The notes under the pieces: model-generated
Database searches by the model: none
What the model was told of the DNA's origin: nothing
The model's input: only the letters and a program-made list of their open reading frames with translations
Part shown: positions 19,291 to 56,550 of the stretch, piece by piece
How the letters are laid out: each line of letters opens with the position of its first letter
How positions within the stretch are numbered: the first letter of the stretch is position 1
Position numbers and translations under genes: made by a program
Source: a virus
Virus record (IMG/VR): IMGVR_UViG_3300009506_000095
Span: 1 to 56,572 of that record
Reading direction: 5' to 3' (one strand)
Length of the DNA stretch: 56,572 bases

Positions 19291-19478
19291 AGCATGATTA
19301 TACATCTAATCTGATATACACTAATCCGTATGAATATACTTTCACTTCGAACATATTTAACTACACTTTTGATTCAAATAGTACAATAACTTATACCTTT
19401 AATAGCGATAAAAAATTGTTTGAAGGGTTCACATTCTACACAAATCCATACAATTTCACAAAAGAGGCCAAAAAATGA
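17526..19478 (+). CDS. Fibre-like protein 2, 3' part (repeat stalk and C-terminal tail)
   Basis: 650 aa as read from GTG 17526, but the same frame is open upstream across the repeats from about 17285, and no ribosome site precedes the GTG. A short unique spacer ([16 protein letters not shown]) separates two repeat blocks. [13 protein letters not shown] repeats fill about 10-585, with two LPGSPSES- or IPGSPSES-type variants. The last ~60 residues are a Tyr/Phe/Asn-rich tail ([17 protein letters not shown]). It ends in an ATGA overlap with a glycosyltransferase gene, so fibre and glycan enzyme are translationally coupled. Confidence 0.65.
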
Positions 19479-20383
19479 TAAGCATAATAATACCTGCAAG
19501 AGATGAGAAATATTTACAGACAACTATTGATGATATAAACAACAGAATATCTGGAGAATTTGAATATGAGATAATAGTTGCTCTTGATGGGTGTTGGCCT
19601 AATCCAAGTATAAATAGGGATAAAAATGTATCATTGGTACACTTTGGTGGGCCAAAAGGAATAAGATATATTGTTGAAGCAGCAATAAGAATTGCAAAGT
19701 ATGAGCACATAATGAAGTTAGATGCCCATTGCTCTTTAGCGAAAGATTTTGATAAGGTTCTGATAGCAGATACTGAGGATAATTGGATCTCAATACCAAG
19801 TAGATATAGCCTTAATGAGAAGAGCTGGAAGAAAACCAGAGGGCCAGTAGATTATATGATGATAACCTATCCATACGCTGATGATGATAAATATGGATGG
19901 GGAATCCATGGTAAGAAGTGGAGAGGTGAAAACGGACAAGATGGAAATTTCTGGCACCTTGAGAAAAAAAGAAAGAATATCCTAATAGATGATATAATCA
20001 TATTCCAAGGTTCATGCTGGTTTATGCACAAACAACACTTCTGGAATATTGGTGGATATGAAAAAAGCCATCCATATATAATGTTTCAAGAAGCTCCTGA
20101 GCTTTCTTTTAAAACCTGGTTATCTGGAGGGAGAGTTGTAAGGAATAAAAAGACTTGGTTTGCCCATATGCATAAGTCGAAAGAGCAAGAGAACACATCC
20201 AGCTATGGTCTATCTAAAAGAAAGAAATATGAGGCAGAGGACTGGTCAGCAGACTTTTGGATGAATGATAGATGGGATAAAAGCATACACAAATTCTCTT
20301 GGTTAATAGAGAAATTCTCTCCTATGTACGGGTGGGAGGATATTGATTGGAATCAAGAGTTTAAAATGAATAGAGGTGGATAA
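19475..20383 (+). CDS. Family 2-like glycosyltransferase
   Basis: 302 aa. The N-terminus [18 protein letters not shown] is the GT2 nucleotide-binding start. IMKLDAHCS supplies the Asp-x-His metal site used by polypeptide GalNAc-transferase-like GT2/GT27 enzymes. The C-terminal part with TWFAHMH and WMNDRWDKS matches the first domain of the protein at 24376-26085, so the two are paralogues. It starts inside the stop codon of fibre 2 (ATGA). I infer transfer of a sugar to the neighbouring Ser-rich fibres or to a host glycan; donor unknown. Confidence 0.8.
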
Positions 20384-20385
20384 GC

Positions 20386-21087
20386 ATGAAATATATAATT
20401 CTTATTATATTCATCATTCTTATAGCATGTTCTCCAGCACCAGATGATTCTATAAACATTGCTGTAATAAGCCTACACGGTGGAGGATGGAGAAGGTCTG
20501 ATGGCTGTTTTGATAATATCCAATTTATGAATAAACTCACCGAGTATGATGTTATTATACCAGATTTCACACTCTCAAACGATCCAAATTTCGTAGACCC
20601 ATTCACCACAATAATGGATATAAAAAGTGTTGTTGATAGTGCTAAGCTAACTCATGATGAAGTTTTCTTATGTGGCAGATCATCTGGAGGTCATTTGGCT
20701 CTTTTCTATTCTATACTTAGACCATATGATATAAAAGGAGTGATAGACATAGCTGGGCCATCTGACCTCACCACTCTCGCAGATAGTGCTTGGGATGAGG
20801 ATACAATAGAGATTTTAAGAGGAATGGTTGCTGATTTCAGCATAATAGATGGAAGAGATTTAAGAAAAAGTTTCAGTATAAATGTAGACTCTGGAGTTCC
20901 ATCACTCCTAATATACAATACGCTCGATTCTACTGTTGATTATGATACTCAAGCAATTCCATTATTTGGTACTTTCCCTAATGCAGATATAAGGATATTC
21001 AACGACCCAACAGGGCATATTTTTGTCGATAGGCATGAAGATGAAATAATAAACAGTATTAGAGATTTTATAAAGAAGAATGAGTAA
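20386..21087 (+). CDS. Lipoprotein alpha/beta-hydrolase (esterase-like)
   Basis: 233 aa. A hydrophobic signal (residues 3-14) ends in the lipobox L-I-A-C with C15, predicting a membrane-anchored lipoprotein. HGGG (31-34) is the oxyanion motif of the hormone-sensitive-lipase/carboxylesterase group. GRSSG (97-101) holds the nucleophile S99; the Asp of NTLDSTVDY and the His of TGHIF complete a plausible triad. Likely an acetyl- or acylesterase acting on glycans outside the cytoplasm. A phage-encoded lipoprotein esterase could modify the host envelope or remove O-acetyl groups. It overlaps the next gene by 8 nt. Confidence 0.75.
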   Translation: MKYIILIIFIILIACSPAPDDSINIAVISLHGGGWRRSDGCFDNIQFMNKLTEYDVIIPDFTLSNDPNFVDPFTTIMDIKSVVDSAKLTHDEVFLCGRSSGGHLALFYSILRPYDIKGVIDIAGPSDLTTLADSAWDEDTIEILRGMVADFSIIDGRDLRKSFSINVDSGVPSLLIYNTLDSTVDYDTQAIPLFGTFPNADIRIFNDPTGHIFVDRHEDEIINSIRDFIKKNE

Positions 21088-21748
21088 TATAACCCTCATA
21101 TACTATACAGCTAATAGGATTCATAAGTCATTTGCTCTGAAGATAAGAGAAAACTTACAGGAATTAGCTGATAGTATTGAGTCTGAAATAATAAGTGTGT
21201 CTTGGAAGCCTATTGATTTTGGTAGAAATATATGTGTCGGAGAGCTTGAGTTTTTGCCATACAATGTTTATAAGCAGATACTCATAGGCTCTAAGGCAGC
21301 AAATACAGAGTATATAGGATGCTGTGAGGATGATTCTCTTTATAACATAGAGCACTTCTCCTATAGAAGTGATTGTTTCTCATATAATGTTAATAGATGG
21401 AATGTAGATTCCAGAGGAATTTATTACTACAGAAGAAGATCTGGAATGTGCATGTGCGTAGTCCCAAAAGAATTATTGATTGAGACACTGGAGAAAAGAT
21501 TTGAGAAATATCCAAAGGTTGTAAATAGAGATGAAAGGCCATATTTTGGTGAGCCTGGAAGGTATGAAGAGATACTTGGGCTTCCAGAAGTAAAGATGGA
21601 GACATTCACAACGAATGATCCAACATTAACCTTTAACCATAGACCGAGCCTTGGCGGGAAAAGAAAGATACTGAAAAGGGATATTGTTAAAAAATCAATC
21701 CCGTTTTGGGGAGATGCCGAGACTCTTTGGAGGGAATACTATAAATGA
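21080..21748 (+). CDS. Glycosyltransferase-like protein
   Basis: 222 aa. It is homologous to the C-terminal ~230 residues of the protein at 24376-26085: both start with L-x-YYT-x-N, share 'FG+N', a YKQIL/FKQIL helix, an acidic metal-site-like strand end (GCCEDD here, LTEHD there), 'YNVNRWNVDS' versus 'YYNNNVWKVDA' and end with SIPFWG/SVPFWG. The acidic triplet suggests a GT-A-like fold. Donor and acceptor unknown. It overlaps the genes on both sides. Confidence 0.62.
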   Translation: MSNITLIYYTANRIHKSFALKIRENLQELADSIESEIISVSWKPIDFGRNICVGELEFLPYNVYKQILIGSKAANTEYIGCCEDDSLYNIEHFSYRSDCFSYNVNRWNVDSRGIYYYRRRSGMCMCVVPKELLIETLEKRFEKYPKVVNRDERPYFGEPGRYEEILGLPEVKMETFTTNDPTLTFNHRPSLGGKRKILKRDIVKKSIPFWGDAETLWREYYK

Positions 21749-22506
21749 TAATGCCAGAATTAGTAGACGGATGTAGAGTTAAATGTAAATTATGCTGGAA
21801 TAGTTATCGTTACCCACCGATGACCGAGATGCCTTTGGAGATAGTCGAGAAGGTTCTTGAACGCCATCATGGTGATAAAATAGAATGGTTCAATTGGGGA
21901 GATCCACTTTTACACAAAGATATATACAAAATATCTGAGATGGTTAGGTTTACAAACTCAAGAATAAGCTCTTCACTTTCTCTTATGATGGATGAAGAGA
22001 AATTCGCTGCTGTAAAGAATTTCAAGTCTATTATAGTCTCCATATCAGGAATGACTGGAAGTGTATATAATATCTATCATAGAGCAGGTCTTTTTTCTCT
22101 TGTAGTAAGCAATCTCCACCAGCTTATAAGAAGAGAGAATAATATCATTATCAGATGGCTAGGGCATAAATATAACCAGCATCAGTATGCCCAGTGTAAG
22201 CAATTCTGCGAGAAGCATGATCTTAGATTCGACCCCATATTACTAAATGCTACTGTGGAAGATATGATGAATGGTATAGAGGATGATCTGATTGGGGATA
22301 AACATTCTGATGCTGGAAAATGTCGACTCCTAAAATGGGTTCCAATCGGAGTCGATGGATCATATCTCTTGTGCTGCGCTTCGCATAATATAAAGACAGG
22401 ATACACGATATTCGATGATATAACACCAAAGCAACTACTTCAGAGAAAGCTTGAGATGCCGTTCTGTATAAAATGTAGGGAAAGAGAGTTATGGAGAAGA
22501 TTATAG
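21745..22506 (+). CDS. Radical SAM protein with SPASM-like C-terminus
   Basis: 253 aa. The CxxxCxxC motif is near the N-terminus (C10, C14, C17), followed by a GDPLLH segment equivalent to the SAM-binding GGEPLL. The C-terminal region has further Cys (GKCRLL, LLCCASHN, FCIKCRERE) resembling a SPASM/twitch auxiliary Fe-S site. Such proteins carry out radical chemistry on peptides, sugars or cofactors. In this operon a sugar or peptide modification of the fibres is plausible but unproved. ATGA overlap with the previous gene; it overlaps the next by 16 nt. Confidence 0.8.
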   Translation: MIMPELVDGCRVKCKLCWNSYRYPPMTEMPLEIVEKVLERHHGDKIEWFNWGDPLLHKDIYKISEMVRFTNSRISSSLSLMMDEEKFAAVKNFKSIIVSISGMTGSVYNIYHRAGLFSLVVSNLHQLIRRENNIIIRWLGHKYNQHQYAQCKQFCEKHDLRFDPILLNATVEDMMNGIEDDLIGDKHSDAGKCRLLKWVPIGVDGSYLLCCASHNIKTGYTIFDDITPKQLLQRKLEMPFCIKCRERELWRRL

Positions 22507-23123
22507 AAGTATTAATAGTAGACATAGATCGTTCACGTTACACAGATCAGCTACTTGGAGATATATCTAAGCAGACTGTAGAGCCAGATGTATTCCTGTT
22601 CATACAAGACTCTCATGATATGGTAGGGCTGAATAGGATATGGAATGCTTTCTATGAGCAATCTGAATGTAAATACCTTTCTTTTCTGAACAATGATATT
22701 AGAATACCTAAAAATTTTATTGAAGATACGTTGGATATATTTGAAAAAGAGAGTGATGTTAGCATAGTAGTCCATTCTACAAATCATCCAGATTATACAG
22801 ATGTTACAGATCTTAATTATGTTATATATGATAGCGATCTTTGTCAGGGATGGGACTTCACTATAAGGAGAGAAGATTATGTTAGAATCCCTGATGATTT
22901 GGACACTTTTGGAGGTGATGATTTCTTATTCTATAATCAGTATAGAAATGGCAACAAGGTTGCTGTAGCAATATCATCGCCTATAATTCATTACCATGCT
23001 AAGAGTAGGCATTATTTCAGAGGAGACAGGCAGAAAGAGCGTGATAACCTTAGAAAATATGTCCCAGAACGGATGACATATTATTCTAGATATTCTAGGA
23101 GAGATCCATGCCAGATGGTTTAG
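22491..23123 (+). CDS. Glycosyltransferase, GT-A fold
   Basis: 210 aa. An N-terminal strand (IIEVLIVDIDRS) is followed by YLSFLNNDIRIPKNF, where the NND takes the DxD metal-site position of GT2-like enzymes, and by a C-terminal GWDFTIRRED...GGDDFLF segment typical of the acceptor or catalytic-base region. It is short for a full GT2. It overlaps radical SAM and sulfotransferase genes by 15-16 nt, so it belongs to the same translational unit. Confidence 0.7.
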   Translation: MEKIIEVLIVDIDRSRYTDQLLGDISKQTVEPDVFLFIQDSHDMVGLNRIWNAFYEQSECKYLSFLNNDIRIPKNFIEDTLDIFEKESDVSIVVHSTNHPDYTDVTDLNYVIYDSDLCQGWDFTIRREDYVRIPDDLDTFGGDDFLFYNQYRNGNKVAVAISSPIIHYHAKSRHYFRGDRQKERDNLRKYVPERMTYYSRYSRRDPCQMV

Positions 23124-23776
23124 TCGTATCAGTACCAAAGAGTGGAAGGACTTGGTTGAGAGGATTCTTGATTCTATATGAGAAAGTATCTTCAGAGAAA
23201 ATTGATGTACTATACTCTCATAACTGGAGAAGCCTAAATGTAAAAAGAGTGCTTCTTGTAAGAGATCCACTAGATATACTTGTAAGTGACTATCACCATC
23301 TAAAATACAGAAGTAAGAAGAAAACTGGAAGGCTAAAGAATATAAAAGCTTTCATAAGAAGTGGATGGGGAGTGCGTAAAATAAATAGATACTGGAGTAA
23401 TTGGATTCATGAAATAGATGAAAAAGTCCTTGAAGTAAGATATGAAGATCTATTCAATAATGTATGGTGCGAGATTCTGGATTGGTTTGATATAAAGATA
23501 AATAATGATGTTGTTGAGGTAGTGGATAATATATGCAAATTCAAGAATATGAAAAACAATTTAAGCCTATTCAGAGATCACGAAGATGGCTGGAGATTTC
23601 TGCCTTCGGAGAATGGAAATATGGTGGATAACCCGACTGATAACAATGCTCATAAACTTAGGAGGGGAAAAGTTGGCGGTTATGTAGATTATCTTGACGA
23701 AGATGATATAAACTATGTAAGAAGTTCAATGCCAGTCGCTGGACGATGGTATGAGGAATATAAGGGGGCAAAATGA
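23108..23776 (+). CDS. Sulfotransferase (PAPS-dependent)
   Basis: 222 aa. The 5'-phosphosulfate loop VPKSGRTWLR (residues 9-18) and the 3'-phosphate site LVRDPLDILVSDY (about 50-62) are in classic order. The C-terminal RRGKVGGYVDYL (about 184-195) matches the RKGxxGDWK cap of cytosolic-type sulfotransferases. It would transfer sulfate from PAPS to a hydroxyl or amine, here probably on a carbohydrate made by neighbouring enzymes. ATGA-type overlap with the methyltransferase downstream. Confidence 0.85.
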   Translation: MPDGLVVSVPKSGRTWLRGFLILYEKVSSEKIDVLYSHNWRSLNVKRVLLVRDPLDILVSDYHHLKYRSKKKTGRLKNIKAFIRSGWGVRKINRYWSNWIHEIDEKVLEVRYEDLFNNVWCEILDWFDIKINNDVVEVVDNICKFKNMKNNLSLFRDHEDGWRFLPSENGNMVDNPTDNNAHKLRRGKVGGYVDYLDEDDINYVRSSMPVAGRWYEEYKGAK

Positions 23777-24366
23777 GTAGGATAGATGAAGCAATAAAGG
23801 CAAAGTTCAGAATAAAGAGAGGTGATAACCTTCCATACACTGGGTGGGCAAATTGGGATAGAAATATGCTTGCCGAGCTATTCAAGGACGTTGGATTTAC
23901 GCTTGGTGCTGAAGTTGGTGTAAGAAAAGGTGAATATACAAGAATACTATGTGATGCTAATCCTGAATTAAAGATGTTCTGCATAGACCCATATACTGCC
24001 TACAATCGAGTGTCCAATGATAGACAGGCAAGATACTTTAGGAATGCGGAGCGTAGGCTGAGAGGATGTAATGTAGAATTTATAAAGAAAACGAGTATGG
24101 ATGCTCTTGAGGATATTCAAGACAGGACTCTTGATTTTGTATATATAGATGGAAGGCATGAATTCGATTTTATTATGCCTGATATTATCTTCTGGTCAAG
24201 AAAGGTTAAGCGTGGAGGGATAGTCTCAGGTCATGATTACTATTATTTCTATCAAGGCGGTGTGGTAGACGCAGTAAATGCTTATACTCGCACCCATAAT
24301 ATCCAAGAGTGGTATTTGACCCAAGAGCGTCATCCATCTTGGTTTTGGGTAAACAGATGGTCTTAG
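23773..24366 (+). CDS. Class I SAM-dependent methyltransferase
   Basis: 197 aa. SAM-binding motif I is AEVGVRKGEYT (about 46-56), the acidic strand end is MFCIDPY, and DFVYIDGRHEFD and GGIVSGHDY follow. This resembles the Methyltransf_24/cephalosporin-hydroxylase-like group often found in polysaccharide clusters. Likely O-methylation of a sugar or small acceptor. Starts in an ATGA overlap with the sulfotransferase stop. Confidence 0.82.
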   Translation: MSRIDEAIKAKFRIKRGDNLPYTGWANWDRNMLAELFKDVGFTLGAEVGVRKGEYTRILCDANPELKMFCIDPYTAYNRVSNDRQARYFRNAERRLRGCNVEFIKKTSMDALEDIQDRTLDFVYIDGRHEFDFIMPDIIFWSRKVKRGGIVSGHDYYYFYQGGVVDAVNAYTRTHNIQEWYLTQERHPSWFWVNRWS

Positions 24367-24375
24367 GGGGCTAAT

Positions 24376-26085
24376 ATGACAGATCTATCAATAATTATAC
24401 CAAGCAGAAATGAAGAATTTCTCACCAACACAATAGACAATATTCTTGAGAATATAAGAGGGAATACTGAAGTTATAGCCATCCTTGATGGCTATTTGCC
24501 TATGTTTCCGATTGCTCAGAATGAAAGAGTCAATGTAGTCCTACTCGAAGAATCCATAGGGCAGAGGGCTGCTACAAACTTGGGTGCTAAATTAAGCTCT
24601 TCTGAATTTATAATGAAGTGCGATGCCCATTGTGCTTTTGATGAAGGGTTTGATGTTAAGCTTATGGAAGATTGCGAGTATGATTGGACTGTTGTTCCAG
24701 CTATGTATAATCTCCATGCCTTCGATTGGCAATGTGATAGTTGCGGTGGAAGAGCTTATCAAGGAGTAAAGCCTACAAAGTGTATCGCATGCGGTAGCAA
24801 CTCTGGTAAATTCACTAAGAAGATTATATGGGAAGCAAAGAGTAATCCAAGATCAGAGTTCTATTACATAGACAGTGTTGATCTAAGATTCAAATACTGG
24901 AGACAGTTCAAGAAAAGGCCAGAAGCCCAACCAGACTTAGCACCTACTCTTGGAAATCTTGGGGCATGCTTCTTTATGCACCGTGATAGATTTTTCGATT
25001 TAGGTGGAATGGATGAAGAGCATGGCTCTTGGGGTCAATTCGGAACTGAGGTATCGCTTAAGGCTTGGTGCTCTGGGGGCAAACAGCTTACTAATAAAAA
25101 GACTTGGTTTGCCCATATGTTCAGAACTGGAGATGGCTTCGGTTTCCCTTACAAGTTATCTGGAAAGCAGGTGCGAGAAGCAAGAAGGTACTCAAATGAT
25201 TTCTGGAGGAATAATAAGTGGCCTTTAGCTGTAAGGACTCTAGATGATGTTATAGAGCAATTCAAACCAGTTCCTACTTGGCACGATGATGATGGAGAAA
25301 GGACTGTAGAGGCCAAAGAAGTCACAGAGCCCAAGAAGGAAAAGAAAATAAAGGTTGGAGAGACAAAAGGGTTGGTTTACTATACTGATAATCAGGCAGA
25401 AGAGAGAATACTTCTTGCTGCCAGGAATCAGATTGAAAGATCTAGAAATGGTCATGCTTTAGTCTCTGTTTCTCAATATCCTATTAAATTTGGTAAGAAT
25501 TTTGTCATGGGTCTTGAGAGATCTTCTCTTTCTATGTTTAAACAGATACTTAAGGGTATCCAAGAAATAGATGCAGACATTATTTTTCTTACCGAGCATG
25601 ATGTTCTTTATAATAGTTCTCATTTTGATTTTACTCCCAAGAGAAAAGATGTTTATTACTACAATAATAATGTATGGAAAGTAGATGCGAGTGATGGAAA
25701 AACTCTGCATCATAATAAGATTAAGCAGGTTTCTGCCTTGGTCGCCTATAAAAGCCTCCTCCTAGAACATTATGAGAGAAGGGTTGAGTACATAGAGAAG
25801 AATGGATGGAGGAGGAAGATTGGTTATGAGCCTGGGAAGAAAATGAGACATGGCGGTTTGGATGATTACAGATATAGATATTTCTCATCAGAATACCCTA
25901 TCATAGACATAAAGCATCCAAATACAAAAACAAAGGGCAGGTTCAACTTAGATGAATACCGATGTAAGGATAGCATAAAAGATTCTTGGGAAATATCAGA
26001 CTCAGTACCATTTTGGGGGGTCACTAAGGGTAGATTTAGTGAATTTCTTAGAGATGTAATAACTGGAGATATAAAGATTGGGTAG
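24376..26085 (+). CDS. Two-domain glycosyltransferase with zinc-ribbon insert
   Basis: 569 aa; GGGG-type ribosome site. Residues 1-300 are a GT2 domain (LSIIIPSRNEEFLTNTID, IMKCDAHCA) paralogous to the protein at 19475. Within it, about residues 119-140 form an inserted CxxC...CxxC zinc ribbon (CDSC, CIAC), absent from the paralogue. A charged Lys/Glu linker (about 315-335) leads to a C-terminal domain homologous to the protein at 21080. So two separate genes in this island occur here as a fusion, suggesting they act in sequence. Donor and acceptor unknown. Confidence 0.78.
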   Translation: MTDLSIIIPSRNEEFLTNTIDNILENIRGNTEVIAILDGYLPMFPIAQNERVNVVLLEESIGQRAATNLGAKLSSSEFIMKCDAHCAFDEGFDVKLMEDCEYDWTVVPAMYNLHAFDWQCDSCGGRAYQGVKPTKCIACGSNSGKFTKKIIWEAKSNPRSEFYYIDSVDLRFKYWRQFKKRPEAQPDLAPTLGNLGACFFMHRDRFFDLGGMDEEHGSWGQFGTEVSLKAWCSGGKQLTNKKTWFAHMFRTGDGFGFPYKLSGKQVREARRYSNDFWRNNKWPLAVRTLDDVIEQFKPVPTWHDDDGERTVEAKEVTEPKKEKKIKVGETKGLVYYTDNQAEERILLAARNQIERSRNGHALVSVSQYPIKFGKNFVMGLERSSLSMFKQILKGIQEIDADIIFLTEHDVLYNSSHFDFTPKRKDVYYYNNNVWKVDASDGKTLHHNKIKQVSALVAYKSLLLEHYERRVEYIEKNGWRRKIGYEPGKKMRHGGLDDYRYRYFSSEYPIIDIKHPNTKTKGRFNLDEYRCKDSIKDSWEISDSVPFWGVTKGRFSEFLRDVITGDIKIG

Positions 26086-50420: not shown

Positions 50421-51419
50421 ATAGCAAGATCAACCAAAAAGAGAACAGAACTGATAAAGGATACACTAAGAAGATTTGATAATCTCCCGATAAACACAAT
50501 AGCAAAATATCTCATACAAAAATACCCTGAGCTTTTTGATAGTAAAGAAGAAGCAAGATCAGCCTTAAGATATCACACAGGAAGGTCAGGACCAGGGAAT
50601 ATTAAAAAACTTAGTGATAAGTCACTTATAAGAACAGGTGATACAAAGCAAATAAAACTTCCAAGTACATGGAGACATGTAAGAGAGCCTTACTATTTAG
50701 ATCCAGGGCTATGGCTTATACTTAGTGATATACATGTTCCGTTTCACGAACCAAAGCCGATAGAGCAAGCGATAAAGTATGGTCAGAGTGAAGGAATATC
50801 TGGTGTATTGATAAACGGTGATCTTCATGACTGTGCTTCTATAAGTTATTGGCCAGTAAGTCATAGAGACTTCCCAAGAGAAACAGAACTAGTTATAGAT
50901 TTTTTAGACTTCTTGATACAAGAATTTCCTGGTAAGAAGATTGTCTGGAAACCAGGCAATCATGAACTAAGACTTCCAAGACTTTATATGAGTAAGGTTC
51001 CTGAGTTGGTTGAAATGCCTTATTTAGCTATGGAAGCTGCTCTGAATCTTGAAAAGAGAGGGATAGAATTTCTTGACTACTTCCAGCTCGTAATGGGCGG
51101 AAAATTGTACTTGCTCCATGGCCATGAGGTAAATAGGCTAGATGTAGCTGTAAACCCAGCAAGAGGTCTTTTTAGAAAGACGAATGGATCATCAGCTGGA
51201 TGCGGGCATACTCATCGCACTTCTGAGCATGTAGAAGTACGTATGGACGGAACTATGGTGACCTGTTGGTCTTTTGGGTGTCTATGCGATCTTTCTCCAG
51301 ACTACAGACCTTATGGTAATAGCTGGAATTGGGGATTCGCAACTATAAATGTTGAGAAGGATGGAAACTTCGAGCTTGTAAATAGAAGAATAGACAGTAA
51401 GAGTGGTAAGATTTTCTAA
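50421..51419 (+). CDS. Calcineurin-like metallophosphoesterase with N-terminal helical domain, AUA start
   Basis: 332 aa. Metal-site motifs are in order: SDIHVPFHE (about 101), NGDLHD (about 131), KPGNHE (about 178), LHGHE and GHTH (about 233 and 264). The ~100-residue N-terminal part has a helix-turn-helix-like region (INTIAKYLIQKYPELF...). The frame is open back to 50397, but no ATG, GTG or TTG occurs before the first metal motif. The best start is ATA at 50421, 6 nt after GGAAGG. The TTG at 50808 would remove the first metal-binding motif and cannot be the real start. The 3' end overlaps the convergent PurA-like gene by 4 nt. Confidence 0.75.
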   Translation: MARSTKKRTELIKDTLRRFDNLPINTIAKYLIQKYPELFDSKEEARSALRYHTGRSGPGNIKKLSDKSLIRTGDTKQIKLPSTWRHVREPYYLDPGLWLILSDIHVPFHEPKPIEQAIKYGQSEGISGVLINGDLHDCASISYWPVSHRDFPRETELVIDFLDFLIQEFPGKKIVWKPGNHELRLPRLYMSKVPELVEMPYLAMEAALNLEKRGIEFLDYFQLVMGGKLYLLHGHEVNRLDVAVNPARGLFRKTNGSSAGCGHTHRTSEHVEVRMDGTMVTCWSFGCLCDLSPDYRPYGNSWNWGFATINVEKDGNFELVNRRIDSKSGKIF

Positions 51420-52618
51420 TTTATTCTTACTTCACTTAATTCCTCAGCGAAAGGGGATAGTGATATATAAACATTATTTGCCCCTACAACACGATTTATC
51501 TCGCTTATGAACTGATTTCTATTCTTACAATTGAATAGTTCACCCTCTCTGGTATACATATAGCTATTTGGATGAGACATCTCTGCTGAATCTACACAAG
51601 TCACTATAAGATTTACCTTGATGTCTCTATTATCTCTAAGATACTCATACCCTGAGAATATCCTATCGACTGAATATTGGATGAGATCTAGGTCTAAGAT
51701 TGATGTTCTAAACCTGCCCCTTCTGCTATCAGACTCGTTAAGCTCATATATATTACTAAACTTTATACCAACGTAATCATCATTGGTCATAGGGCCATTT
51801 CCATGGCGAGTCTGATAAGCCCTTGTTACAAGGTGTATATCTGTAAGACTAAAATTGGATTCTTCAATAATCTTCATAGCATTGGTAAGATCTGTTTTAG
51901 ACCTTGTAACATGAGGGAAGAATCCATGATTCTGGTCAAGAAGGACTCCTTGAGAACCTTCAAATATTATGTCACCATCAGTATTAATATTATTGCCTAT
52001 AATGCCTATCAAATTATTATTATTGATGAAATCTATAGCTTCATAGAAAGTGTTTAATCTTGAATCATCCAATCTCGCATATCCACCATCCATAGCCTTT
52101 ATATCATAATACTTCTTAATCATTTTCATTTTTATATCCAGAACCTTTTTATTTTTAAGGTCTGAAGCTTTCAAGGAATAAAATTCAGACTCCCTCTGCC
52201 AAGTCTGTCCTACACCTACATAGCAACTGCCATCTATGTTATATCTTCCTGAAATGTTATTATACTGGATATCATAAGGCGTAGTAACTGGACAATCTTT
52301 ACTTATCATTAACCTTATGCTTTTATCACAGATCTTTCTCTCAATTTCTCTGTGCTCATTCATTATTCCTACTGGCTCTATGGTGCAATATTTAGAGAAA
52401 AAAGTTGGGCACCCTTGAAGGGTGCCACTACCATAGTTAGAAAACATATGATGCTTCCCCTTGTAATAAACACTATGCCCTGCCTGTTGCCCTCCACTAA
52501 ATCTTACAACTAGAGGTTTTCTGAAACTTCCTTCCTTTTCATGACAGATATGAGAAACTACCTTTCCCTTGCCCTCATCTCCAAAACCTAATCCAATACA
52601 TATACTTACTTTTCCCAT
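51416..52618 (-). CDS. purA: Adenylosuccinate synthetase-like (PurA/PurZ family)
   Basis: 400 aa from ATG 52618 (GGAGG upstream). GFGDEGKGK (residues 11-19) keeps the catalytic Asp (D14) and P-loop of PurA. SGGQQAGHS replaces the usual GGHNAGH, keeping the second His. EGSQGVLLDQNHG and RRGRFRTSILDLD correspond to the substrate and Arg loops. PurA joins Asp to IMP using GTP. The phage homologue PurZ makes the 2-aminoadenine precursor from dGMP and, as I recall, usually replaces that Asp. Retained Asp favours PurA-like chemistry, but the altered GGQQAGH makes substrate uncertain. No other Z-DNA pathway genes are visible here. Confidence 0.8.
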   Translation of the reverse strand: MGKVSICIGLGFGDEGKGKVVSHICHEKEGSFRKPLVVRFSGGQQAGHSVYYKGKHHMFSNYGSGTLQGCPTFFSKYCTIEPVGIMNEHREIERKICDKSIRLMISKDCPVTTPYDIQYNNISGRYNIDGSCYVGVGQTWQRESEFYSLKASDLKNKKVLDIKMKMIKKYYDIKAMDGGYARLDDSRLNTFYEAIDFINNNNLIGIIGNNINTDGDIIFEGSQGVLLDQNHGFFPHVTRSKTDLTNAMKIIEESNFSLTDIHLVTRAYQTRHGNGPMTNDDYVGIKFSNIYELNESDSRRGRFRTSILDLDLIQYSVDRIFSGYEYLRDNRDIKVNLIVTCVDSAEMSHPNSYMYTREGELFNCKNRNQFISEINRVVGANNVYISLSPFAEELSEVRIN

Positions 52619-52637
52619 AAGCAACCTCCATAATAAA

Positions 52638-52661
52638 AAAGGCAGGATTTCTCCTGCCTTT
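52638..52661 (-). terminator. Intrinsic terminator
   Basis: On the minus strand AAAGGCAGGA pairs with TCCTGCCTTT around a 4-nt loop and is followed by further Ts. It sits between the VWA gene and the PurA-like gene and should reduce read-through from the former. Confidence 0.8.
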
Positions 52662-52681
52662 GGGTTAATCATTGATGTTGA

Positions 52682-53554
52682 TTAAATATCCAATCTTCGC
52701 CTTGTTACATGCCTCTCAGCCTCAAGAATCTCTTGGCTGAACTCATTAATCTTACTTACTATCAGCTGAGGGATTTCCTCATAGTTCTCAGTAGTAATAA
52801 GATTTTCACCAAGTAGATTCCTCCAGCTTTCGATTATATTAGGTTTATTCCCTGTACCGTCAAGAAGATGTATATGAAATACATTATACTTCTCTTTAGC
52901 AGCATTCAAAAGAGCTTCAGAAGATAAGTTCACTTCTCCTGAGGCATGGCTCATTATTTCTCTTAGAGAAGAAATAGGAATTGTCCTATGATAATCCTCA
53001 TCCCCTATAGTGAAAATAAAGCCTTTAATGTTTCTTTTCTCAAAACAGTCAATAGCTGTATGCTGAGAAGCAAAATACCAAGCAAGAGCATAACTCTCAC
53101 CGCCATTACCTCCACCATGGCCTTCAAGGTAAATATCTGTTAGCCACTTATCAAGCAACTCATCGCTTGACTCGAACTGGCCAACTTGGAGAGGAGCGTG
53201 GTCGCATTTATGATCACCAATACCGACAAATAATACCTGAGGGTCAAGAACTCCACCATCACGAATCATAGCATCCATAATAGTTGGTAATCCGTCTTTT
53301 ACGATATGACCAGGCACTCGACCCATAGAGCCTGTTACATCAAGACCTAATAGAATAGCTACAGAGTTCGGGTGCTCTTCACTATCTCTTGATTCACGAA
53401 TCGTAATGTTTTTTGGATTCATAGAATCATCCCTAGCCAAATCATCGAAAGTAATAGAATTAGAAGTAAATGTCTGAGCTAGACTATTAGTATAATAACC
53501 CATATTTTGTGCTCTTACAGTTCTTCTAGAAGAAGAATAACTTCCACCACCCAT
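52682..53554 (-). CDS. VWA-domain protein
   Basis: 290 aa from ATG 53554, chosen for GGAGG upstream; the longer frame would run into the tRNA gene. The MIDAS motif LDVTGSMG (D72) starts a VWA domain with a Gly-rich segment (HGGGNGGES) and TIGDEDYH. Residues 1-60 are a Ser/Arg-rich, probably flexible N-terminus. VWA proteins bind ligands through the metal site. The window's other VWA domain is in the Ro60 homologue 0.7 kb upstream on the same strand, so the two may form an RNA- or protein-handling pair. Confidence 0.75.
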   Translation of the reverse strand: MGGGSYSSSRRTVRAQNMGYYTNSLAQTFTSNSITFDDLARDDSMNPKNITIRESRDSEEHPNSVAILLGLDVTGSMGRVPGHIVKDGLPTIMDAMIRDGGVLDPQVLFVGIGDHKCDHAPLQVGQFESSDELLDKWLTDIYLEGHGGGNGGESYALAWYFASQHTAIDCFEKRNIKGFIFTIGDEDYHRTIPISSLREIMSHASGEVNLSSEALLNAAKEKYNVFHIHLLDGTGNKPNIIESWRNLLGENLITTENYEEIPQLIVSKINEFSQEILEAERHVTRRRLDI

Positions 53555-53573
53555 AGTTGCCTCCTTTTTGTTA

Positions 53574-53651
53574 TGGGGTGGGTGAGGGGATTTGAACCCC
53601 TGACCTTCTGAGTCACAATCAGATGCTCTTTCCGCCTGAGCTACACCCAAC
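53574..53651 (-). tRNA. tRNA-His (GTG)
   Basis: 78 nt with all four arms: D-stem GCTC/GAGC with a GG-containing loop, anticodon arm TCTGA-TTGTGAC-TCAGA giving GTG, T-arm AGGGG-TTCAAAT-CCCCT, acceptor pairing except at 1-72, discriminator C73 and an encoded CCA. A 5' extra G (opposite C73) is the tRNA-His identity element. It sits directly upstream of the VWA gene. Confidence 0.92.
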
Positions 53652-53658
53652 ATAATTT

Positions 53659-54098: not shown

Positions 54099-54293
54099 TC
54101 AACCAGAACTATCATACAAGTAATAGTACTTACACCAGTGGCATGTTACTTTGTGGACAAAAGGTCTGACGTTTTCCTCTACAGTGTTGTGATCAGAGGA
54201 CTCACACTCTTTGACTAAATCAGGAGTTTCTGGCCATCCATTCGCCCACCCAAAGTCTTTATACCCTTCCAGGCTTTCCCCATCCGAATACAT
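54099..54293 (-). CDS. Small protein overlapping the Ro60 3' end
   Basis: 64 aa starting 35 nt inside the 3' end of the Ro60 homologue in another frame, with GAGG 7 nt upstream. The C-terminus has CHWC followed by KYYYLYDSSG, a possible half zinc-binding site. Acidic overall. No family recognised. Coding potential is plausible because it fills the gap to the next gene. Confidence 0.45.
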   Translation of the reverse strand: MYSDGESLEGYKDFGWANGWPETPDLVKECESSDHNTVEENVRPFVHKVTCHWCKYYYLYDSSG

Positions 54294-55755
54294 CTGCGAA
54301 CCTCAAAAGTTTAGATTCCATAATTTCATCAAGCAGAGAATACCTATTAGCTCTCATAGTCTTCACCAAATTAGGTAGACCATAGTAATCAATATCTGGG
54401 GTATCATAGAAATTTATCCTGCCTTTCACTAGGCTGAACACCTCTACACTTCCTCTAGGCATATAGTTGATAAGCCTGTTGGTCTCCCCTGGTACATGGT
54501 AAAGGTAGACGGTTGGATCAACTCCAAACTTATTTTGATATTTCTCATAAGCTTGGTGGAAATAAGGAGTAGAGTTATCACCACCATCGGAACAGATAGC
54601 TATCCCGTCTACCAATATGCCCTTAGAAGCTATGTAGTCAAGACCGCAACCAATAGAAGTCCCACCACCAGCATTCATCCTCTTGGTCATATCCTTAATT
54701 TCTTGAAGAGTTTTTCCTGTAACATCTACATATGTAGGCATAGTATTAAAGAATACAAGGTGAACTTTTCCCTTAACAGATCTAGCTAGAGTCGCTGCTA
54801 CATTTCTGGCTACTTCGATACAAGCAGACATAGATCCAGATCTATCTCCAAGGACTAACCAATCCCCATCAATTCTGTTCTGATCTATTTTATCTTCTTG
54901 AATCTGGGTGAGTTTCTCAGAAGCCTTTTTATCACCTATAATCTCTGCTGCCTTTCCAGCTTTCATGCTGGAAACTCTCTTATCATCTTTAGCCCTCTTT
55001 ACCGCAGCATCATAAGATGATTTTAGAGCAGGATTCTCAAATACACCATATTTTTTCAACATAGCAGTATTAGTGATAAGCTCAGCCCCTGTCATACCTT
55101 CTATTAGAGCAAGGATAATATCTGTCTTATCCTTGTGAGCACCTATCTCCCCAACAGCTATTAGGAATGGAATCTTATAATTCAATATCGTTCCAGCTGC
55201 TTCTTTAGGGGTCATTAATTTTAGATTCTTTATGGCTTCAAATACAGTTCCTTTTGGACGCTCACCATCAAAAAGAATCTTCTGTGCCCAAGGGTTTGGT
55301 GCTATATGGTTCATAGCATAGAGTCTCTTAAGACCAGATCGGTGTTGAACTGCTACCGCATTCCACCTTCCCCTATCTTCTTCTAAATAACGGATGTAAG
55401 CCTTTACAGCATCCTTCATCAGAGTTCCACCGCCTGTAGTGACTGGGGGGATAGAATCGCTTCTATTAAATTCTGTTGCTCTCAAGAATCCTCTAACATC
55501 AAGCTTACATAGATTAGCAACAGCATTTTCAAAAAGCTCCTCATCATACTCACCTCTTAAGGCTATCACTGGAAGAGCAGCTTTACTATCCCTTACCTCA
55601 CCATTTTTAGTATTCCAAGCAATAAGGTGTGCGAATAGGTCTGGCTCATTTTTTACTGCCTTAAGACCTACAGTGCTGTAGACTGAAAAATCCCTATGGC
55701 CTACTTTGATTAACTGTGAAACGATTTCATTTTTTGATACAATTTCCTGATCCAT
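54259..55755 (-). CDS. rsr: Ro60/TROVE-domain RNA-binding protein
   Basis: 498 aa from the second ATG (55755), 7 nt after AAAGGAGG; the first ATG (55761) is only 1 nt from that site. Residues 1-290 form the helical-repeat TROVE ring (e.g. WNTKNGEVRDSKAALPVIAL, GRWNAVAVQHRSGLKRLYAMN). Residues about 300-480 are a VWA domain with MIDAS DRSGSMS (D304), AGGGTSIG and CSDGGDN. Bacterial Ro60 (Rsr) binds misfolded RNA and Y RNAs and can tether PNPase. Family knowledge: likely Y RNAs lie beside Ro60 genes in bacteria and phages; an array of candidates lies upstream here. Confidence 0.9.
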   Translation of the reverse strand: MDQEIVSKNEIVSQLIKVGHRDFSVYSTVGLKAVKNEPDLFAHLIAWNTKNGEVRDSKAALPVIALRGEYDEELFENAVANLCKLDVRGFLRATEFNRSDSIPPVTTGGGTLMKDAVKAYIRYLEEDRGRWNAVAVQHRSGLKRLYAMNHIAPNPWAQKILFDGERPKGTVFEAIKNLKLMTPKEAAGTILNYKIPFLIAVGEIGAHKDKTDIILALIEGMTGAELITNTAMLKKYGVFENPALKSSYDAAVKRAKDDKRVSSMKAGKAAEIIGDKKASEKLTQIQEDKIDQNRIDGDWLVLGDRSGSMSACIEVARNVAATLARSVKGKVHLVFFNTMPTYVDVTGKTLQEIKDMTKRMNAGGGTSIGCGLDYIASKGILVDGIAICSDGGDNSTPYFHQAYEKYQNKFGVDPTVYLYHVPGETNRLINYMPRGSVEVFSLVKGRINFYDTPDIDYYGLPNLVKTMRANRYSLLDEIMESKLLRFADVFGWGKPGRV

Positions 55756-55786
55756 AGACATGCCTCCTTTTTTGGGTAAAATAAAA

Positions 55787-55913
55787 CCTGAATATTACAT
55801 AGCCCTTTCTGCCTCTATTTTTTATTATACAGAGAATTACCTCTGTTTAATACCGAGTTCGAATCCCGACAGGGCACCAGATAGCTATGCTACCAGACTA
55901 TATAATATTCAGG
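55787..55913 (+). ncRNA. tRNA-like element enclosed by a 16-bp inverted repeat (orientation uncertain)
   Basis: Arms CCTGAATATTACATAG (55787-55802) and CTATATAATATTCAGG (55898-55913) pair with one G-U. Inside, on the plus strand, GCCCTTT (55802-55808) pairs 6/7 with ACAGGGC (55869-55875), followed by A and CCA like a tRNA acceptor. A TTCGAAT loop on an imperfect stem resembles a T-arm, and a hairpin ACAGAG/CTCTGT takes the anticodon-arm position. No D-arm is evident. TAGC-TAT-GCTA makes a further hairpin. It may be a decayed tRNA or another Y-like RNA. It separates the Y array from Ro60. Confidence 0.45.
55824..55853 (-). promoter_or_regulatory. Candidate promoter of the Ro60 gene
   Basis: A minus-strand TATAAT (55824-55829) lies about 65 nt upstream of the Ro60 start. 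A TTAAAC-like -35 is 15 nt further upstream, shorter than ideal. It falls inside the inverted-repeat element at 55787-55913. Weak candidate. Confidence 0.3.
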
Positions 55914-55924
55914 CTAAATTGTAA

Positions 55925-56051
55925 GGGCAGAGAGTCTTGAAAGCAATAATACGTGCTCTAACCACTGAGCTATCCCCCAAGTTGGGGGAGTGGGATTCGA
56001 ACCCACGACCACGGACTCCCAATGTCATGTATGCCTTCAAAGTATCCACCC
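55925..56051 (-). ncRNA. Y RNA-like RNA 4 with circularly permuted tRNA-Pro(TGG) domain
   Basis: Terminal stem GGGTGGA/TCTGCCC (two G-U pairs) encloses the conserved strand TACTTTGAAGGCATACAT and the 3' GACTC. The insert is a permuted tRNA: the 3' half comes first (55982-56026: anticodon loop ATTGGGA, T-arm GTGGG-TTCGAAT-CCCAC, acceptor TCCCCCA), then a 2-nt linker after the discriminator base, then the 5' half (55952-55979: acceptor TGGGGGA, D-arm GCTC-AGTGGTTA-GAGC). Acceptor strands pair 7/7. Joining the outer ends would recreate a perfect CGGAC/GTCCG anticodon stem with anticodon TGG. Confidence 0.75.
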
Positions 56052-56065
56052 TTATTTTCAAAAGG

Positions 56066-56144
56066 AAGGGGAGAGTTGAAGAAGCGTTTGGTTGATTTAT
56101 GTCTTCGCTAGATATAATCATGTAAGCCCCTAAAGTATCCCCTT
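56066..56144 (-). ncRNA. Y RNA-like RNA 3, minimal form without tRNA domain
   Basis: Terminal stem AAGGGGA/TCCCCTT (7 Watson-Crick pairs), conserved strand TACTTTAGGGGCTTACAT, inner helix AGGGGC/GCTTCT (two G-U) and the 3' AACTC. The enclosed part is only about 34 nt and has no tRNA arms. Same architecture as its neighbours with a different stem sequence, so the stem is maintained by compensatory change. It lies 13-14 nt from the flanking elements. Confidence 0.68.
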
Positions 56145-56157
56145 GAAATTCGATTTT

Positions 56158-56310
56158 GAGCAGAGAGTCAAGTGAGCTTTATCTTCAATAAAGAGACATT
56201 CACAGTGTCTCACAGTGTCTTGCGCTACCATTGCGCTAACTGTCCAGTATGGCGGACGGTATCGGATTCGAACCGATAAATTATCATGTAAGCCCTCAAA
56301 GTATCTGCCC
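56158..56310 (-). ncRNA. Y RNA-like RNA 2 with permuted tRNA-like domain (GTG anticodon-like loop)
   Basis: Terminal stem GGGCAGA/TCTGCTC, conserved strand TACTTTGAGGGCTTACAT, inner helix GGGCTT/AAGCTC and the 3' GACTC. The insert has T-arm ATCGG-TTCGAAT-CCGAT, acceptor ACCGTCC with an encoded GCCA, a 4-nt linker, acceptor GGACAGT (6/7 pairs) and D-arm GCGC-AATGGTA-GCGC. An AGACA-CTGTGAA-TGTCT arm reads GTG but is preceded by a 10-nt tandem duplication (56201-56220). Discriminator G and the duplication make a functional tRNA-His unlikely. Confidence 0.7.
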
Positions 56311-56315
56311 AAATT

Positions 56316-56377: not shown

Positions 56378-56386
56378 AAACTGTAT

Positions 56387-56509
56387 CGGCTGTGAGTCGT
56401 TTAAGCTGTCTTGCTAAATATTCGGAATTGAACCGAAAACATTCAGATTAGTAGTCTGATACTCTAACCAATTGAGTTATATTCATGTAAGCCCTAACAG
56501 TAACAGCCG
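56387..56509 (-). ncRNA. Y RNA-like RNA 1 with tRNA-like domain in normal order
   Basis: Terminal stem CGGCTGT/ACAGCCG (7 Watson-Crick pairs), conserved strand TACTGTTAGGGCTTACAT and the 3' GACTC. The insert (about 56413-56486) is an unpermuted tRNA-like fold: acceptor TGAATAT/ATATTTA, D-arm ACTC-AATTGGTTA-GAGT, anticodon arm TCAGA-CTACTAA-TCTGA, T-arm TTCGG-TTCAATT-CCGAA. The loop would read ACT, but the short variable region does not fit tRNA-Ser and no CCA is encoded. First element of the array. Confidence 0.7.
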
Positions 56510-56550
56510 ATTTTCTCAAAGATCAATAACGTAAAGTTATTTTTAACTAT

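Follow-up and report, generated by a model that had tools for sequence, protein, structure and literature searches.

The window analysed here comprises positions 1 to 56,572 of the IMG/VR virus record IMGVR_UViG_3300009506_000095. It encodes a divergent Ro60-like protein directly downstream of, and on the same strand as, an array of structured RNAs (Table 1). Single-sequence searches of Pfam and the PDB with this protein found no TROVE domain and matched vWA_Ro60 weakly; at the sequence level, an 18-sequence profile matches TROVE as well as human RO60 chains. As judged from its AlphaFold model (pLDDT 83), the protein combines the helical ring and the vWA domain of Ro60/TROVE proteins. Foldseek searches with the model retrieved TROVE 9kop, the Ro60 of Thermus phage phiLo (9l5y), the RNA-bound Xenopus Ro (1yvp) and D. 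radiodurans Rsr (2nvo), with E values from 8.8e-10 (9kop) to 5e-8 and TM scores of about 0.6. On the strength of the modelled structure, the profile matches and the array, the window is assigned as a phage Ro60 locus with a predicted Y RNA array.

Y RNA no. 4 (Y4) is the fourth member of the array, and its 33-nt 5′ motif recurs in three further upstream copies, each heading another Y RNA. The anticodon arm of the tRNA-His(GUG)-like module in Y2 contains a 10-nt direct duplication (GACACTGTGA twice), and the Y2 acceptor loop carries GCCA, as though it stemmed from a tRNA whose CCA is encoded. A fifth structured element, of uncertain nature, separates the array from the Ro60 gene. It may represent a decayed Y RNA, a leader structure or something akin to an attachment site, and its plus strand bears the tRNA 3′-end-like string CCGAGTTCGAATCCCGACAGGGCACCA. 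Elsewhere in the window, an adenylosuccinate-synthetase-like gene (51416-52672 (-)) matches the phage family phrog_1211 and resembles PurZ of the 2-aminoadenine route, a hint of modified phage DNA. The longest phrog_2971 ORF (52682-53653 (-)) begins inside a tRNA-His gene (53574-53650), and translation probably starts at the ATG that follows an AGGAGG near 53554. Genes for glycosyltransferases, a sulfotransferase, a methyltransferase, a radical-SAM protein and a hydrolase cluster among phage genes at 19475-26085 (+), in what looks like a glycan-modification cassette.

Table 1. Features of the Ro60 locus and of the probable Y RNA no. 4, in window coordinates
Feature	Position	Strand	Basis or remark
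Y RNA no. 1: Ro stem around a normal-order tRNA-like module, anticodon ACU	56384-56512	(-)	ARAGORN: tRNA-Ser
Y RNA no. 2: tRNA-His(GUG)-like module in permuted order, broken within the variable region	56156-56313	(-)	
Y RNA no. 3: Ro stem and short hairpin effector, without tRNA module	56058-56146	(-)	
Y RNA no. 4 (probable YrlA-class), 133 nt	55922-56054	(-)	Sequence, Rfam YrlA match, fold
Y4 outer stem, 10 bp, UAAGGGUGGA/UCUGCCCUUA	56054-56045/55931-55922	(-)	Followed by internal loop
Y4 inner stem, 10 bp, UUUGAAGGCA/UGCUUUCAAG	56041-56032/55945-55936	(-)	After internal loop
Y4 UACAUG motif	56031-56026	(-)	Between inner stem and permuted module
Circularly permuted tRNA-Pro(UGG)-like module	55952-56026	(-)	Break between positions 28 and 29
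Anticodon hairpin half GAC + AUUGGGA + GUCCG	56012-56026	(-)	Not in YrlA consensus
Anticodon-stem positions 29-31, GAC	56026-56024	(-)	Read from sequence
Anticodon loop 32-38, AUUGGGA, with U33 and anticodon UGG	56023-56017	(-)	Read from sequence
Positions 39-43, GUCCG	56016-56012	(-)	Read from sequence
Variable loop 44-48, UGGUC	56011-56007	(-)	Read from sequence
T-arm GUGGG UUCGAAU CCCAC	55990-56006	(-)	Read from sequence; present in MFE fold
Sealed 7-bp acceptor stem including ACU loop	55973-55989	(-)	Sequence and fold
Acceptor 3′ strand 66-72, UCCCCCA	55989-55983	(-)	Read from sequence
Acceptor loop ACU, 3 nt	55982-55980	(-)	Read from sequence
Acceptor 5′ strand 1-7, UGGGGGA	55979-55973	(-)	Read from sequence
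D-arm GCUC AGUGGUUA GAGC	55955-55970	(-)	Sequence and fold; UA between acceptor 5′ strand and D-arm
A26	55954	(-)	Read from sequence
Positions 27-28, CG, pairing with 42-43, CG	55952-55953	(-)	Comparison across relatives
Uncertain fifth structured element between array and Ro60 gene	55777-55923	(-)	26-nt inverted repeat, z -7.3
Ro60-like protein, 500 aa, helical ring and vWA domain	54259-55761	(-)	AlphaFold, Foldseek, profile; phrog_850 RNA-binding protein

Y4 contains the parts of a tRNA-Pro(UGG) in circularly permuted order. A preliminary description of this DNA had recognised the module, and both its coordinates and its pairings proved correct: the acceptor strands pair 7/7 over the 3-nt loop and D- and T-arms are present. 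Joining the outer ends completes the anticodon arm, as had been stated, with CG plus GAC complementing GUCCG at 5/5 positions and with U33 and UGG in the loop. The standard tRNA register is kept throughout (7-nt anticodon loop, 5-bp anticodon stem, 5-nt variable loop, 5-bp T-stem and 7-bp acceptor). Because the order of the halves is permuted, neither ARAGORN nor the Rfam tRNA model called the Y4 module in the window.

The Rfam YrlA model (RF02553) matches 55921-56052 (-) over model positions 1-114 of 114 (47.9 bits, E=1.7e-9), and the alignment contains one large insertion in Y4, the 15-nt AUGACAUUGGGAGUC, at the site of the anticodon hairpin. Since this score lies below the curated Rfam cut-off of 69, we name Y4 a YrlA-class variant and do not file it as a YrlA member; sub-threshold YrlA matches turn up in ordinary control genomes too. 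A 135-nt stretch with Y4 has a minimum free energy of -55.1 kcal/mol (z -4.6). Y4 displays the hallmarks of bacterial Y RNAs, namely a Ro60-like neighbour, a stem formed by its 5′ and 3′ ends and a permuted D/T/acceptor module, and we consider it very probable that 55922-56054 (-) is a YrlA-class Y RNA. The YrlA model match, the neighbour of Ro60 fold, the closed Ro stem and the covarying arms in relatives bear out the earlier proposal of a YrlA-type mimic with a retained anticodon arm. The conformer with the anticodon arm lies 7.6 kcal/mol above the minimum, which forms another hairpin there, in an energy model of secondary structure that leaves out tRNA tertiary contacts and protein.

Scans of IMG/VR yielded 18 loci whose encoded proteins are closely related to the Ro60 protein of the window (40-58% identity); L129 and L141, both among them, seem to represent a single sequence. 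A further copy is located on a WWE3 MAG contig (L142, MEWG01000024.1), which equals the viral locus L126 over the Ro locus in coordinates, identity and tRNA and motif positions; the WWE3 MAG seems to include phage sequence, which is a hint, not proof, of the host. Nearly all relatives bear arrays with an outer stem, an ACU.../GACU internal loop, an inner stem and UUACAUG, and most of the 52 candidate Y RNAs extracted from the relatives and the window, seven of them placed by hand, share this layout. Their effectors fall into five classes: (i) normal-order tRNAs leaving the Ro stem at the acceptor end (13 cases); (ii) permuted modules in which the break falls in the variable region and the D-arm precedes the anticodon arm (L005:322, L127:6955, L139:4717, L140:4868 and Y2); (iii) permuted modules broken in the 5′ anticodon strand (L005:587, L129:2737, L134:1372, L136:1110 and Y4); (iv) a permuted module broken at 26/27 (L140:4718); and (v) short hairpins, some of which resemble a lone anticodon arm without D- and T-arms (L138:4753, L135:4910), as found by a search that demanded U33 and a purine 37 and therefore constitutes weaker evidence. 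In some relatives the anticodon loop is swapped for a tetraloop or lacks U33, so that an anticodon-specific factor would not read all of these RNAs.

The arrays contain many different tRNA identities; an avoidance of repeated anticodon identities within an array was too weak to claim. Stop-codon-type anticodons were observed in the Y-embedded tRNA modules L126:4203 and L127:7456 (CTA; TTA with C33). A distant Ro60 relative accompanied by a long array of similar RNAs is encoded by a 595-kb phage (LR756511.1, L003:75-3280); the array shows the motifs CTTACAAAC and ACTTGGACG, and one of its RNAs encloses a tRNA-Thr. The DNA pattern GGATAC..GC.TACATG for the Ro stem proved unspecific (120 viral-contig stretches, 0 with a Ro homologue), blastn with the YrlA consensus gave no match in E. 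coli genomes, and a match in Mycobacterium phage Gardann (L149) was rejected as an ordinary tRNA-Trp region.

All fetched loci were scanned for a T-arm, a sealed acceptor and a D-arm in permuted order, with the anticodon arm ignored. Whenever a normal anticodon arm followed the D-arm, the case was dropped; this removed, among others, tandem normal tRNAs with chance acceptor complementarity, which this arm gives away. The resulting set holds 32 distinct elements from other phages and a Rhizobium plasmid. Once the Ro stem is removed, 22 of these 32 elements rebuild 5/5 anticodon pairs in the exact tRNA register, compared with a mean of 0.9 and a maximum of 5 such stems in 2000 re-pairing trials. 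Both junction pairs, 27-28/42-43, are formed in 25/32 elements (shuffled mean 5.2, maximum 13). In a 33-row alignment built from concatenated segments, two rows of which were shifted by MAFFT, the five pairs covary at 0.713 (shuffled 0.177 +/- 0.036; slid registers 0.11-0.23) and are formed in 73% of cells versus 39% on shuffling; in the junction helix, 86% of cells are paired and each pair shows at least 4 pair types. Among loops placed by the D- or T-arm only (n=23), U33 is present in 21/23 and a purine 37 in 22/23. The preliminary description had cautioned that the 2 bp restored at the joint might be due to chance, and had named unpaired or missing anticodon halves in homologues as an observation that would refute its reading. 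The rebuilt stems and the covarying junction pairs remove the first concern, and the homologues gave the opposite outcome, the pairing being retained in 22 of 32. We regard it as highly likely that Y4 keeps its anticodon arm.

The cultured Gordonia phage BlueNGold carries a Y RNA beside an annotated 'Ro-like RNA binding protein', with the arm CU/CGA AUUGGGA UCG AG, the loop of which is identical to that of Y4. The element corresponds to SEA_BLUENGOLD_156 (L150:2440-2528, near 88731-88819 of OP297539.1), annotated as a tRNA-Leu(gag) with an overlapping tRNA-Gln. More likely, it is a YrlA-class Y RNA with a split anticodon arm, and Y RNAs may be among those included in phage tRNA counts. In the rtcR-rsr-rtcB locus of Rhizobium etli, one Y RNA (L151:2351-2485) has GG/AGA UCGUUAA UCU CC, and its neighbour (L151:2499-2611) is a canonical YrlA (97.9 bits) without an anticodon arm. 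On this plasmid, pRetIE4771c, several Y RNAs stand in a row between rsr and rtcB (L151:2280-3000); one of them appears broken in the D-loop, with the 3′ half of the D-arm first and the 5′ half last.

The preliminary description had also considered a permuted gene that yields tRNA-Pro, by circularisation of the RNA at 28/29 and opening at the acceptor to give a functional tRNA-Pro(UGG). Such a gene would account for the correct register of every tRNA part and the completeness of the rejoined cloverleaf, and a CCA in the acceptor loop of Y2 and some relatives fits it as well. Known permuted tRNA genes, from algae and one archaeon, have junctions at various cloverleaf positions and intervening sequences down to 1 nt, and depend on a BHB junction and the splicing endonuclease (PMC3978253). 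By inspection, however, Y4 has no BHB motif: the gap between junction and inner stem consists of 5 and 6 unpaired bases, without a 4-bp helix with 3-nt bulges. Furthermore, the ends of Y4 are locked in a conserved, predicted Ro-binding stem, its 3-nt acceptor loop is devoid of CCA, and the acceptors of relatives are capped by UUCG, CUCG, GCAA or longer loops. RtcB was not found in the window and 16 related records (17 phage records), although the same search was positive in 9/14 control genomes, and an RNA ligase scored above the cut-off in one of the phage records only. The evidence thus speaks against a tRNA-yielding gene; as several of the records searched for RtcB are fragments and a host ligase is possible, a slim chance is left for circularisation. 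Chance, or a decayed tandem-tRNA remnant without a present role, could be invoked given that partial genes are common in phage tRNA arrays and that control genomes give sub-threshold YrlA matches. The adjoining Ro-fold gene, the stems repeated in nearly every relative, the fold z of -4.6 and a covariation far above shuffles and slid registers make this exceedingly improbable.

Our favoured reading, with a probability of about 55%, is that the permuted element constitutes the tRNA-like part of Y4, a Y RNA used by the phage Ro60, and that it presents a tRNA mimic to readers of the anticodon arm or serves as an RNase tether. The paired 5′ and 3′ ends would form a long two-part stem to which Ro60 is predicted to bind. 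The tRNA body appears to be opened inside the 5′ strand of the anticodon stem, with the Ro stem leaving the gap as a third branch, and the complete tRNA-Pro(UGG) shape, including the anticodon loop, would be shown as transcribed, without cutting or ligation, if the fold suggested by covariation is adopted. Such a mimic should not be chargeable, since its acceptor is sealed by the 3-nt loop. Stably anchored on the Ro60 particle and uncharged, the mimic might then be on offer to proteins that recognise the shape of a tRNA and its anticodon arm; candidate partners are host anticodon-targeting nucleases, for which it would be bait, or an RNase such as PNPase tethered to Ro60. YrlA tethers PNPase to Ro60 and is a substrate of DusA/TruB modification (PMC8394870). 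Y4 may accordingly share this plain role as an RNase tether or target of tRNA-modifying enzymes, its anticodon arm being a tolerated leftover of recent capture. The armless canonical YrlA of Rhizobium, the relatives in which the arm is gone or capped by a tetraloop, and the varied tRNA identities of the arrays, as expected from repeated captures, agree with a leftover. By contrast, the split stem is held by compensatory changes across very different sequences, the persistence of U33 and purine 37 needs constraint or a very recent capture each time, and the Y RNAs with a lone anticodon-like hairpin, weaker evidence given the search settings, also argue against it; we rate the plain role with a leftover arm as the less probable account, at well below even odds. 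Within the favoured reading, the kept arm seems to fit a Ro60-anchored bait better than a pure RNase tether, both being candidate roles, and a bait or sensor for anticodon readers in place of a plain tether is proposed tentatively, at slightly less than even odds. Phages evade tRNA-targeting defences by means of tRNAs (PMC10264068, PMC11555353), and YrlA was suggested earlier as a possible anticodon-nuclease inhibitor (PMC7790460). It is conceivable, albeit unlikely, that Ro60 particles display a panel of complete, unchargeable tRNA mimics of several identities that bait or sense host anticodon-arm nucleases, as a Y-RNA anti-defence system. In such a panel, and with the same reservation, the Ro stem might join at whichever tRNA position suits: the acceptor end, the anticodon stem, the variable region or 26/27.

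Circular permutation of the tRNA in a Y RNA (PDB 6CU1; PMC11472068) and Ro60 genes in phages (PMC7824862) have been reported before. The arms described for YrlA are limited to D, T and acceptor (PMC8394870), and the Rfam YrlA consensus lacks an anticodon arm. As far as checked, what is new is that an anticodon arm is retained and covaries, and that the modules are broken at varied points. The covarying arm bears on what the tRNA-like part of bacterial Y RNAs may do: it is retained in many phages and in a single Rhizobium Y RNA, mostly with U33 and real anticodons, which would extend the mimicry to the part of tRNA read by decoding factors and anticodon nucleases. Whether it acts as bait or tether is directly addressable in BlueNGold. 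Y RNAs, not tRNAs serving translation, may lie behind some of the tRNA genes annotated in phages, among them normal-order ones within Ro stems.

Among known systems, YrlA (RF02553; crystal structure 6CU1) shares with Y4 the location adjacent to Ro60, the stem of 5′ and 3′ ends, the 3′ half placed first, the sealed acceptor and the D- and T-arms. Y4 differs in the 15-nt insertion that restores the anticodon hairpin, in the branching of the Ro stem inside the anticodon stem and in its score below the cut-off. The rsr-Y RNA-rtcBA RNA repair operons of Salmonella and the Rhizobium etli plasmid likewise combine a Ro60 orthologue with a Y RNA cluster, and Rhizobium L151:2351-2485 even shares the split anticodon arm; in contrast to these operons, the phage loci have a divergent Ro60, normal-order as well as permuted modules and, in the window and the 16 related records, no detected RtcB. 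Permuted tRNA genes of algae and Thermofilum pendens also have the 3′ half before the 5′ half and give a complete cloverleaf when rejoined, whereas Y4 has its ends in a predicted Ro-binding stem, a sealed acceptor and no BHB junction. Like tmRNA, Y4 would be a stable, tRNA-imitating RNA working outside normal decoding, but it has neither an mRNA-like part nor an open CCA end and, unlike tmRNA, it possesses an anticodon arm.
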